This document shows, piece after piece, positions 4,574 through 64,000 of a stretch of DNA of 64,000 nucleotides; the stretch's first letter is position 1, and each line of letters opens with the position of its first letter. The notes under the pieces are model-generated. The model searched no databases and was not told the DNA's origin. It worked only from the letters and a program-made list of their open reading frames with translations. The stretch covers positions 19,575-83,574 of the forward strand of contig JAFLRZ010000010.1 of the NCBI GenBank assembly GCA_022511225.1, in the 5' to 3' direction. This DNA comes from Eubacterium sp. GTDB lineage: Bacteria > Bacillota > Clostridia > Oscillospirales > Acutalibacteraceae. The position numbers were made by a program, and so were the translations under genes.

Positions 4574-4827
4574 ATTTCCCTCCAAAAATAAAAGCCCCTG
4601 TCATTAGACAGAGGCAATAATAACTGCGGTTCCACTCTTGTTTATACTCAGCTGTTGTTTAACAGCTTCAGTCGGTAACGGGACTAAACGGCACAGAATA
4701 CTTAGTTTCACCTGCGCAGCTCGAAAGTGCATTTCATTAAGTCTTTGATACAGGCATTACAGCATACAGCCTGCTCTCTTAATCAAAGATTATTAATTAC
4801 TTCTCTTTGTCATAGCTTTTGTCTATT
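4574..4827 (-). promoter_or_regulatory. T-box leader riboswitch (candidate Cys specifier) for cysE-cysS
   Basis: Read on the minus strand, the leader contains the conserved T-box core AGAGTGGAACCGC (complement of 4626-4639). After it comes a terminator hairpin with arms in 4594-4615 and a U-rich tail at 4584-4593, ending just before the cysE ribosome site. Upstream are an AGAGAAGTA-like Stem I start and the segment GAAATGCAC. The TGC at 4729-4731 in that segment is the best candidate specifier codon, for cysteine. T-boxes bind uncharged tRNA and favour the antiterminator when the amino acid is scarce. The T-box class is firm. The specifier is inferred from local pattern plus the downstream genes. 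Confidence 0.88.
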
Positions 4828-49014: not shown

Positions 49015-49836
49015 ATGGAATACACAATAATTGCCTTTTTACTTTTTATAGCTTTTATTGCTTTTTGCTACTACCAAAATAACAAAATTGATATTACTGA
49101 ATACAGCATCAAAAACACCGTAGCTGACAATGAATTTAAAATTGCACATCTTTCCGATTTACATTCAAAGCCATTTAACAAGGTAGTCAAAATACTCCAA
49201 GAGGCAAAGCCTGATATCATCTGTATTACAGGTGATTACATAAATGACAAGTGTAAAAACAAGAATAAAATGCTTGAGCTCGGTAAAATGCTTGTTGGCA
49301 TTGCACCTGTTTATTACATAACAGGTAACCATGAACGAAGACTTAGCTGCTTTGAAAAGCTTATGGATGAGCTTAGCGAAATCGGATTTAACGTTCTGCT
49401 TAATGAAACGGCAGAAAATGAGCATTGTGCAATTCTTGGGCTTGATGAAAATCAGGCGGATTTTAAGGATTACAAAGCAAGAAGAAACGGAACGTTTGTA
49501 TACAAAGATATGTCGCCGCATTTTGAAGAATTGAATCAATATAACAAATTCAGAATTGTTCTTTGCCATTTCCCTGAGAACTTTGAAGGAATCAGTGAAC
49601 TAAATTACAGTCAATACAATTTTGATATTCAGCTTTCAGGCCACGCACACGGTGGTCAGTGGATATTAATTAAGCCTCTCTTTTCCCCCGGTCAAGGAGT
49701 ACTTCCCAAATATGCGAAAGGTACTTTTGGCGACAGACCAAAGCTTATAATCAGCAGAGGTTTAGGCAATTCAGAATTTCCGTTACGACTATTCAATCAT
49801 CCTGAAATAATATTTATAAATGTAGTAAAACACTAA
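49015..49836 (+). CDS. Membrane-anchored metallophosphoesterase (YaeI/YkuE-like)
   Basis: A 273-aa product from the ATG at 49015, with AGGAG 8 bases upstream. One N-terminal membrane helix (IIAFLLFIAFIAFCYY) precedes a calcineurin-like fold. Metal-binding motifs are AHLSDLHS (DxH), ITGDYIND (GD), TGNHE (GNH(E/D)), LCHFP and GHAHGGQ. The order and GHAHGGQ are typical of the YkuE/YaeI group. Substrates in that group include UDP-diacylglucosamine in Gram-negatives; here none can be named. It is monocistronic, ending at a shared terminator. Confidence 0.92.
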   Translation: MEYTIIAFLLFIAFIAFCYYQNNKIDITEYSIKNTVADNEFKIAHLSDLHSKPFNKVVKILQEAKPDIICITGDYINDKCKNKNKMLELGKMLVGIAPVYYITGNHERRLSCFEKLMDELSEIGFNVLLNETAENEHCAILGLDENQADFKDYKARRNGTFVYKDMSPHFEELNQYNKFRIVLCHFPENFEGISELNYSQYNFDIQLSGHAHGGQWILIKPLFSPGQGVLPKYAKGTFGDRPKLIISRGLGNSEFPLRLFNHPEIIFINVVKH

Positions 49837-49863
49837 AAGCCGATAATCTAATTATCGGCTTTT
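49835..49863. terminator. Bidirectional terminator between the phosphoesterase and ygjP-like genes
   Basis: AAAAGCCGATAAT / ATTATCGGCTTTT form a 13-bp perfect stem with loop CTA. The loop is exactly the TAG that ends the ygjP-like frame after its internal TGA, and the left arm overlaps the phosphoesterase stop. Confidence 0.93.
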
Positions 49864-50363
49864 AATAATTTTTCTCTTTGCTTATAATCCGGCATATACT
49901 TTTCAATAAGATTATAAAAGCTTTTACTGTGATTATGATGCTTAATGTGAGCAAGCTCGTGAACAACAACATAATCTACTGCTTCAGGCGGATAAAGCAT
50001 CAGATAGCAGGAAAAACACAAGGAATTTTTGCTACTTCAAGAGCCGAAACGCTTTTTCGCCTTTGTGATTTTAACTGCGGTAGGCTTAAGTCCCAATATA
50101 TCGGAATAGTAATCCACCCTCTCCGGTATCACCTTCTTGGCAGATTTAATAAGCTCAGACAGCTCGTAATCTGAAACGTTGTATTTTTCGAGCTGTGATT
50201 TTTTATGCTCAAGCATTCTCATTATTGCATTTACATTACTGTTAACAAAACGGTCGATGTCCGATTTCCTCGCGTATTTCGGAGCACGAACTACTACTTG
50301 AAGACTGTCATTAACAGTTATGGAAGCAGTTTTTCTGTCGCTTTTAATTAGTACGTAGTCCAT
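49848..50363 (-). pseudogene. YgjP-like (DUF45) metallopeptidase-fold protein with one in-frame UGA
   Basis: The frame starts MDYVLIKSDRKTASI with AGGA about 7 bases upstream, 3 bases before the tex stop on the same strand. After 108 codons it meets TGA at 50037-50039, then continues open for 62 codons to TAG at 49848. The part before reads KAKKRFGS and the part after SSKN...PPEAVDYVVVHELAHIKHHNHSKSF, so the two halves form one YgjP/DUF45 protein (171 aa; E. coli YgjP is about 167). The zinc motif HELAH is only in the second half. The TGA stands where the family has Cys in (W)GSCS. It may be a nonsense mutation or base error, or, less likely, selenocysteine. Confidence 0.85.
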
Positions 50364-50366
50364 AAC

Positions 50367-52511
50367 TTATTCCTGTGGCTTTTTCATAGTTAGGCTGATT
50401 CTTTTTCTTTCAGTATCAACAGAAAGCACCCACACAGTCACAATATCGCCAATCTTGAGAACGTCAGCAGGATGTTTTATGAATTTATTTGTAATCTGCG
50501 AGATGTGAACAAGTCCATCCTGATGAACTCCAACATCAACAAAAGCACCGAAATCAATAACGTTTCTTACAGTACCTTTAAGCTCCATACCTGCCTTTAA
50601 GTCCTCGATACCCATAACGTCTGTGCGAAGAAGCGGCTGCGGAAGCTCATCTCTCGGATCTCTGCCGGGTTTTGCAATTTCCTTTGAAATATCAATCAGT
50701 GTAGGCTCACCTATGTCAAGCTGTTTTGCAAGTGCAGATGTGCCGACAGTCTGAACATAATTCTGCACCGAAGAAACATTGCCGTTTCTTACATCATCAT
50801 CGCTTACGTTGCATAGTGCAAGAAGTTTTCTTGCGGCTGAATAGCTCTCGGGATGAACACCTGTATTATCGAGAACGTTATCACTTTCGGCTACCCTTAA
50901 AAAGCCTGCACACTGCTCAAATGCCTTAGGACCGAGCTTTGACACATTAAGAATTTCTTTTCTTGAATTAAATGCACCGTTTTTCTGCCTGTAGTCAACA
51001 ATGTTTTTAGCAACAGCAGAAGATACCCCTGCTACTCGTGAAAGAAGCTGTGCTGACGCAGTATTAAGGTCAACACCTACAGTGTTTACGCAATCCTCAA
51101 CAACACCGTCAAGTGCAGAAGTAAGCTGTGTCTGAGGCATATCGTGCTGATACTGACCTACGCCAATTGCCTTTGGATCAATCTTAACAAGCTCTGCAAG
51201 AGGGTCCTGAAGCCGTCTTGCAATTGATACTGCGCTTCTGAGCGATACATCATATTCAGGAAATTCCTCAGCGGCAAGCTTTGAAGCAGAGTAAACAGAG
51301 GCACCTGCCTCGCTTACAACCATATAAGTTATACCACAGTTAAGCTCTTTAATTACCTCTGCTGCAAAGACCTCTGTTTCGTGAGAAGCGGTGCCATTAC
51401 CGATAGAAAAGATTTCAACGTTATGCTTTTTTACAAGATTTTTTATGATTTTTTTAGCTTCCTCAATCTTATTATGAGGCGGCACAGGATAGATTACACC
51501 TGTATCGAGCACCTTGCCTGTACCGTCAACAACCGCAACCTTGCATCCCGTTCGGTATCCGGGATCAAGACCGAGAGTAATCTTATTCTTAACAGGCGGT
51601 TGCATAAGAAGCTGTCTTGTGTTTTTAGCAAATACTTCTATAGCACTTTCACTCGCTGTATCTGTTAACGTATTTCTTATTTCACGTTCAATTGAAGGGA
51701 AAATGAGCCTTGTATATGAGTCTTCAATTGCCTCGATAACTAAATCTGATGACAGAGAATTACCTTTTATATGAAGGTTTTTAAGCAAATTTACACCGAC
51801 AATTTTATCATAGTCTATCGAAACCTTAAGAAAGTCCTCTTTTTCACCGCGGTTAATAGCAAGAACTCTGTGGGAAGCGATAGATTTAACGGGCTCTGTA
51901 TACTCCTTATACATTTCATACACACCCAAATCTTCCTTAGCTCCCAATACTGCAATCTTGCCGTTTTGCTTAATTGAATAACGAAGCATTTTTCTTCCCG
52001 CAGGGTCATCGGAAACAAGCTCTGCAATAATATCCTTAGCTCCTGCAAGAGCTTCCTCAATTGTAGGTACTTCGTCGTTAATATAGTCCTTCGCAAGCTC
52101 TATTGGTATAATGCTTTTTAATTGTTCATAGATTGCATCTGCAAGTCCCTGAAGTCCCTTAGCTTTTGCGACGGATGCCCTTGTTTTCCTTTTTGGTCTG
52201 AACGGTCTGTAAATATCTTCAAGCTCAGTAAGCGTTGAAGCCTTTTCAATTGAGTCTTTTATTTCATCTGTCATAAGTCCCTGTTCCTCAATTGAAGAAG
52301 CGATTTTTGCCTTTTGCTCCTCCATATTACGAAGATATGACAATCTGTCTGCGAGAGCTCTGAGAAGCTGGTCATCAAGTGAGCCTGTTGCTTCTTTTCT
52401 GTATCTTGCGATAAACGGGATAGTGTTACCGTCATCAATAAGCTTTATAGTATTTTCTATCTGCCAGAGCTTGAGCGAAAACTCCTGGCAAAGTACAGTA
52501 TTTATATCCAT
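50367..52511 (-). CDS. tex: RNA-binding transcription accessory protein Tex
   Basis: A 714-aa Tex protein. The N-terminal helical part (TIPFIARYRKEATGSLDD) leads to a YqgF/RNase H-like domain (LGLDPGYRTGCKVAVVD), helix-hairpin-helix motifs (LLSRVAGVSSAVAKNIV) and a C-terminal S1 RNA-binding domain (GMELKGTVRNVIDFGAFVDV). Tex binds nucleic acid and affects gene expression and toxin production in several genera. The ATG at 52511 has AAAGGA 8 bases upstream. A second ATG six codons earlier has no ribosome site. The ygjP-like gene follows after 3 bases. Confidence 0.97.
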   Translation of the reverse strand: MDINTVLCQEFSLKLWQIENTIKLIDDGNTIPFIARYRKEATGSLDDQLLRALADRLSYLRNMEEQKAKIASSIEEQGLMTDEIKDSIEKASTLTELEDIYRPFRPKRKTRASVAKAKGLQGLADAIYEQLKSIIPIELAKDYINDEVPTIEEALAGAKDIIAELVSDDPAGRKMLRYSIKQNGKIAVLGAKEDLGVYEMYKEYTEPVKSIASHRVLAINRGEKEDFLKVSIDYDKIVGVNLLKNLHIKGNSLSSDLVIEAIEDSYTRLIFPSIEREIRNTLTDTASESAIEVFAKNTRQLLMQPPVKNKITLGLDPGYRTGCKVAVVDGTGKVLDTGVIYPVPPHNKIEEAKKIIKNLVKKHNVEIFSIGNGTASHETEVFAAEVIKELNCGITYMVVSEAGASVYSASKLAAEEFPEYDVSLRSAVSIARRLQDPLAELVKIDPKAIGVGQYQHDMPQTQLTSALDGVVEDCVNTVGVDLNTASAQLLSRVAGVSSAVAKNIVDYRQKNGAFNSRKEILNVSKLGPKAFEQCAGFLRVAESDNVLDNTGVHPESYSAARKLLALCNVSDDDVRNGNVSSVQNYVQTVGTSALAKQLDIGEPTLIDISKEIAKPGRDPRDELPQPLLRTDVMGIEDLKAGMELKGTVRNVIDFGAFVDVGVHQDGLVHISQITNKFIKHPADVLKIGDIVTVWVLSVDTERKRISLTMKKPQE

Positions 52512-52559
52512 ATAAAATCCTTTCTTCATTTATTAACTGCTACATATTTTAACAGATTG

Positions 52560-63834: not shown

Positions 63835-63910
63835 TGGAGCTGATAACCGGACTTGAACCGGTGACCTCATCCTTACCAAGGATGTGCTCTACCACCTGAG
63901 CCATATCAGC
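63835..63910 (-). tRNA. tRNA-Thr (GGT anticodon)
   Basis: 76 bases including an encoded CCA. The acceptor GCTGATA/TATCAGC, the D arm GCTC...GAGC, the anticodon stem CATCC/GGATG with loop TTGGTAA (anticodon GGT) and the T arm ACCGG TTCAAGT CCGGT all pair. It reads ACC/ACU threonine codons. Confidence 0.97.
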
Positions 63911-63946
63911 AAAGATTATGGGTGATAAGTACACTTACCACCCACA

Positions 63947-64000
63947 TGGCGACCCGGAACGGGCTCGAACCGTCGACCTCTAGCGTGACAGGCTAGCGTT
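63947..64000 (-). tRNA. tRNA-Asp (GTC anticodon), 5' part beyond window
   Basis: The 3' end with encoded CCA, the acceptor half, the T arm (GACGG TTCGAGC CCGTT) and the anticodon arm CTAGC CTGTCAC GCTAG are visible; the loop gives anticodon GTC. The D arm and 5' acceptor strand lie past base 64000. It lies 36 bases upstream of tRNA-Thr in the same transcript direction. Confidence 0.93.

Follow-up and report, generated by a model that had tools for sequence, protein, structure and literature searches.

The ygjP locus is interrupted by a single in-frame UGA

The window (the whole stretch of DNA analyzed here, 64,000 nt of a Eubacterium sp. draft genome) carries a gene of the ygjP/DUF45 metallopeptidase type whose reading frame is interrupted once by a UGA codon. 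The features that concern us are as follows, in the order in which they are read on the minus strand:

50367..52529, minus strand: gene that we take to be tex-like, directly upstream of ygjP and likely in the same operon; its S1 and ComEA-type matches fall under the cut-off
49848..50363, minus strand: ygjP/DUF45-type metallopeptidase gene with one in-frame UGA; PF01863, 146.1 bits when read through
50040..50363, minus strand: first 108 codons, expected to give the truncated product, lacking HExxH; the database has an identical 108-aa entry (P0121)
50037..50039, minus strand: in-frame TGA, codon 109, at a conserved Cys position; Cys in 119/119 homologs among the matches listed
50004..50035, minus strand: weak hairpin just 3′ of the UGA, found by folding; it also forms in a relative with a Cys codon (L023)
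49848..50036, minus strand: C-terminal part past the UGA, which includes the zinc-site motif HELAH, from translation and the PF01863 match

Translation of the minus strand gives a frame of 171 codons followed by its natural stop, a TAG at 49848-49850, and the TGA is the sole internal stop. The original prediction described the frame as intact on both sides of the TGA, and this description holds: the N-terminal and C-terminal parts each match PF01863 on their own (42.4 and 84.7 bits, respectively, against a curated cut-off of 26), and the read-through sequence belongs to the family at 146.1 bits. The stop is found in the context RFGS-*-SSK, with HELAHIKHHNH downstream, also as first described. 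The HExxH zinc motif and the N-terminal part are not joined in one polypeptide, as HELAH comes after the UGA. By eye, no recognizable ribosome-binding site precedes the first possible start codon of the C-terminal part (TTG, 50019-50021). Also by eye, the TAG coincides with the 3-base loop (CTA on the plus strand) of a hairpin at approximately 49835-49863 that is common to ygjP and the convergent phosphodiesterase-like gene, in agreement with the earlier claim that the gene ends in the loop of a shared terminator.

In its GSCS-type motif region, its HELAH...HNHS motif, its length, and its neighborhood, the gene matches intact members of the genus and resembles YgjP-like metallopeptidases (PF01863, DUF45) generally; it differs from them in being interrupted by a UGA, such that both halves can occur in one polypeptide only via readthrough. 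The nearest solved structure is proabylysin (4jiu, 5.1e-06), with projannalysin and Wss1p as weaker matches. The same genome encodes a second, intact YgjP-family protein of 242 aa with WGSCS and HELAH motifs on contig 31 (L001:407-1135, minus strand), and the gene directly upstream of it presumably encodes a type I restriction HsdR subunit, which it resembles.

The UGA occupies the position of a conserved cysteine

A homolog search found 6183 sequences, and we compared 119 of the best 120 listed, leaving out P0001, a nearly identical protein considered below. Residue 109 is Cys in 119/119 of these homologs among the matches listed, and it is Cys in P0001 as well. At the nucleotide level, we located 112 ygjP loci, in which the codon aligned to residue 109 encodes Cys in 108, is ATG in 2, and is TGA in 2; both TGA entries come from the window's own locus, which was fetched two times, and some of the other loci are likewise one place counted twice. 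These counts bear out the earlier claim that the stop replaces a conserved Cys. The two ATG loci (L119 and L121, from Traorella and Dielma) are distant homologs, for which the alignment may be loose at this position. Among the 25 genomes of the genus that have this form of ygjP, a TGA at residue 109 is present only in the window's genome.

Intact and truncated copies of the same protein are present in the database

Two database proteins are especially close to the window gene. P0001 is an intact 171-aa protein that differs from the window's reading only in having Cys109 and is encoded on a 265,564-base contig. P0121 is a 108-aa protein with 100% identity to the truncated product, and its contig has 527,917 bases. 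As the window's own contig is 83,574 bases, both proteins lie on other contigs. P0001 was recovered again by the 108-aa query, which indicates that its detection did not depend on having searched with the read-through sequence. An intact copy in a close relative is expected of a nonsense pseudogene, and P0001 is such a copy, although its assembly and that of P0121 may share reads with the window's assembly. With this proviso on shared reads, a nonsense polymorphism within the species would be the simplest reading of P0001 and P0121 together.

We considered that the UGA could instead be a base-call or assembly error in a strain that really has an intact Cys codon. The existence of the otherwise identical intact P0001 and the undamaged remainder of ygjP both fit an error of this kind, but the identical 108-aa protein P0121 on another contig speaks against it, unless the two assemblies derive from the same reads. 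On balance, we regard an error as unlikely.

The remainder of the gene shows no detectable decay

Outside residue 109, we compared the window gene to its homologs at columns with at least 97% conservation. It departs from the conserved residue at 1/49 of these columns, namely residue 90, which precedes the stop, and at 0/26 of those downstream of the stop. The homologs themselves (n = 119 among the matches listed) show 0 departures in 80 cases, 1 in 33, and 2 in 6 at 50 conserved columns. By this conserved-column comparison with the 119 listed homologs, decay in the remainder of the frame is not detectable, and we ruled out a long-standing pseudogene because no decay was seen. With no damage detectable in the rest of the gene and an intact, otherwise identical protein on record, the change to UGA is likely very recent.

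ygjP is sporadically distributed and repeatedly broken within the genus

Matches to ygjP at E ≤ 1e-30 are present in 31/80 genomes of the genus (the window's own included), of which 25 have this form of the gene and 6 have one that is more distantly related (37-41% identity). The remaining 49/80 genomes, some of them incomplete, have no match at this threshold, and the same is true of 29/51 good genomes. The near relatives are metagenome assemblies assigned to Clostridia, Ruminococcaceae, or Eubacterium. One scan of viral contigs with P0002 found no ygjP relatives.

Broken copies are found in 3/25 genus genomes with this form of ygjP, namely the window's genome, G105, and G042. The G105 copy has a premature TAG at residue 127 (locus L130, by coordinates the same place as L048), and the G042 copy is split into two frames and contains a stop (L148/L036/L082). 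Stops that were also flagged in L014, L022, L028, L139, and L144 proved to be natural ends at approximately residues 169-171.

In the window, ygjP begins 3 bases past the tex-like gene. In 24/25 of the genus loci (own included), ygjP is preceded by a tex copy in the same orientation, the lone exception being the locus of G042. The distance between the aligned ends of tex and ygjP, which includes the tex stop codon, is 1-20 bases in 23 loci and 278 bases in the remaining one (L136, from G114).

As a control, we looked for stops in the aligned stretches of neighboring genes and found none in tex (0/24 loci), the phosphodiesterase-like gene (0/17), or the gene that we assume to be dgt-like (0/14). 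The locus of G042 holds none of these three genes and is therefore outside this control. As the neighbors show no stops, general sequence error explains the broken ygjP copies poorly. The excess of broken copies in ygjP over its neighbors, three cases in all, is suggestive but not proven. The breaks in G105 and G042 suggest repeated loss of ygjP in the genus. The gene is apparently dispensable there, given that more than half of the genomes have no match at E ≤ 1e-30 and that two other copies are disrupted.

Selenocysteine machinery was not found in the genome or the genus

Genes for bacterial selenoproteins have an in-frame UGA that is flanked on either side by conserved sequence and aligns with Cys in the homologs; the window gene shares this property, with a hairpin behind the UGA. 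A survey of >5200 genomes searches for the selenocysteine (Sec) trait via SelD, SelA, and SelB, with SelB as its signature (PMC5029168).

The window's genome is a draft in 48 contigs with 98.65% completeness, and profile searches of it did not recover the SelA, SelB, and SelD set that a bacterial selenoprotein requires. There were 0 matches to SelA and 0 to the SelB wing domain (PF09107), and 0 of 12 matches to SelB were over the cut-off. The best SelB match, at the edge of contig 46, could have been a selB gene cut off by the contig end, but it is EF-Tu (314.6 bits versus 128.7 bits for selB); the other 11 matches all score under the cut-off, and identity was checked for the best one alone. 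By eye, this EF-Tu gene adjoins an EF-G-like gene. The lone SelD match is PurM (439.2 versus 27.9 bits).

A single tRNA-Sec match barely passes the Rfam threshold (47.2 bits, threshold 47) and is read by ARAGORN as tRNA-Ser with a CGA anticodon; tRNA-Sec with a UCA anticodon was not found in this incomplete tRNA set. The set comprises 21 matches, and a missing tRNA-Sec is by itself weak evidence. ARAGORN read 20/21 of the tRNA loci, with no call for 4 of the 20, and found no UCA anticodon in this incomplete set.

Across the genus, SelA was over the cut-off in 0/60 genomes and the SelB wing in 0/80, the window's own genome being included in both counts. Among the 60, only G012 had a SelA match under the cut-off (19.1 bits). 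In our controls of 14 well-known genomes, SelA was over the cut-off in 1, selB in 2, and selD in 2, and the SelB wing in E. coli alone. In the literature, the best-ranked matches included none that links YgjP with selenocysteine, and YgjP is absent from the titles and abstracts of the matches.

We also examined whether UGA is reassigned throughout the genome. Twelve of 54 long ORFs in the window (12/54; at least 150 codons, with overlapping shorter ones dropped) end in TGA, and the genome has an RF2 match over the curated cut-off. Together, these findings rule out genome-wide reassignment and agree with the original prediction, which excluded general recoding on the grounds that TGA is a normal stop elsewhere.

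The hairpin behind the UGA is not specific to UGA-bearing copies

A SECIS-type hairpin would be expected to go with the UGA-bearing copies. The sequence following the UGA folds weakly, with 38 nt giving -6.6 kcal/mol at z -2.9; this is the cut most favorable to the hairpin, and longer stretches weaken the signal (z -1.7 for 50 nt and -0.75 for 69 nt). The corresponding stretch was compared in 23 fetched relatives, which include several single places fetched twice. One of them, L023, has Cys at this codon and forms the same stem of 5+6 bp (-7.3 kcal/mol); the others form related stems, other stems, or none. Because the same stem forms in a relative with a Cys codon, the hairpin has no particular link to the UGA. 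The initial doubt about this hairpin as evidence for a SECIS element was well placed.

A further reading is leaky termination, in which near-cognate decoding of the UGA would yield a little full-length, active enzyme. UGA is generally the leakiest stop codon, and the intact downstream frame is compatible with some readthrough. However, a recent mutation explains the intact frame equally well, given the otherwise identical intact copy, and the tRNA loci that were read include no UCA anticodon. We consider leaky termination highly improbable. A more elaborate version, also very unlikely, is that a leaky UGA is tolerated without Sec machinery and that the two alleles coexist, switching a tex-linked protease between on and low, with the protease being repeatedly turned off in the genus.

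That the UGA is a selenocysteine codon, making YgjP a selenoprotein with Sec in place of the conserved Cys, is extremely improbable: the exact UGA/Cys alignment and the hairpin just downstream are outweighed by a genome in which SelA, SelB, SelD, and tRNA-Sec were not found, a genus with no SelA or SelB wing over the cut-offs, UGA at residue 109 in no other locus examined, a hairpin that also folds in a Cys-codon relative, and a Cys in the otherwise identical P0001.

A recent nonsense mutation very probably explains the UGA

The reading that we prefer is that the UGA is a recent nonsense mutation that made a loss-of-function allele of ygjP and that the gene does not encode a selenoprotein; we hold this to be very probable. 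One nonsense change at the conserved Cys codon would have produced the UGA. Translation would stop at 108 residues, short of the zinc-binding motif HELAH, and the truncated product, lacking HELAH, would be expected to have no peptidase activity. This change probably arose very recently and could be a polymorphism of the species, and the allele would represent the ordinary loss of a tex-linked, apparently dispensable metallopeptidase. Because no Sec genes were found and an otherwise identical intact copy exists, loss of function of recent origin is the most likely account of this ygjP allele, and we infer that it may segregate within the species.

Several points run against a nonsense mutation. 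The UGA falls exactly at the conserved Cys, as is classic for a Sec/Cys pair, and the frame beyond it is preserved, as expected were the codon read through; in addition, the hairpin reaches z -2.9 in its most favorable cut, and the tRNA-Sec match does narrowly pass its threshold. Under the nonsense reading, ygjP looks like a selenoprotein gene because the lost codon happens to be that of a conserved Cys. The original prediction had offered three options, namely a nonsense change, a base-call error, and a selenocysteine codon. The first is favored by the search of the genome, which found no sel genes, and by the intact P0001, base-call error is made less likely by P0121, and the selenocysteine option fails, as the sel genes were not found in the genome and the relatives carry Cys (119/119 homologs among the matches listed; 108/112 loci).

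We compared the window gene to two kinds of known system. What we take to be its closest counterparts, the nonsense pseudogenes and polymorphic stop alleles of bacteria, share with it a single nonsense change without other detectable signs of decay, an intact copy that is identical elsewhere, and different breaks in two sister species; it is unlike them in nothing notable save the coincidence that the lost codon is a conserved Cys. Bacterial selenoproteins with Cys homologs share with it the in-frame UGA aligned to a conserved Cys and the hairpin behind it, but the window's genome differs from theirs in that machinery for Sec synthesis and insertion was not found, and the hairpin is independent of the UGA.

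The locus serves as a warning case, in that a UGA at a conserved Cys followed by a hairpin mimics a selenoprotein gene, yet the machinery was not found in the genome or genus and there is an intact copy that is otherwise identical. A real polymorphism would also mark YgjP as a gene under repeated loss in the genus.

Other features of the window

Elsewhere in the window, we observed a T-box leader on the minus strand at 4607-4822 (111.6 bits). The minus strand at 63835-64000 also contains a tRNA-Thr (GGT) and a second tRNA match that is cut by the end of the window.
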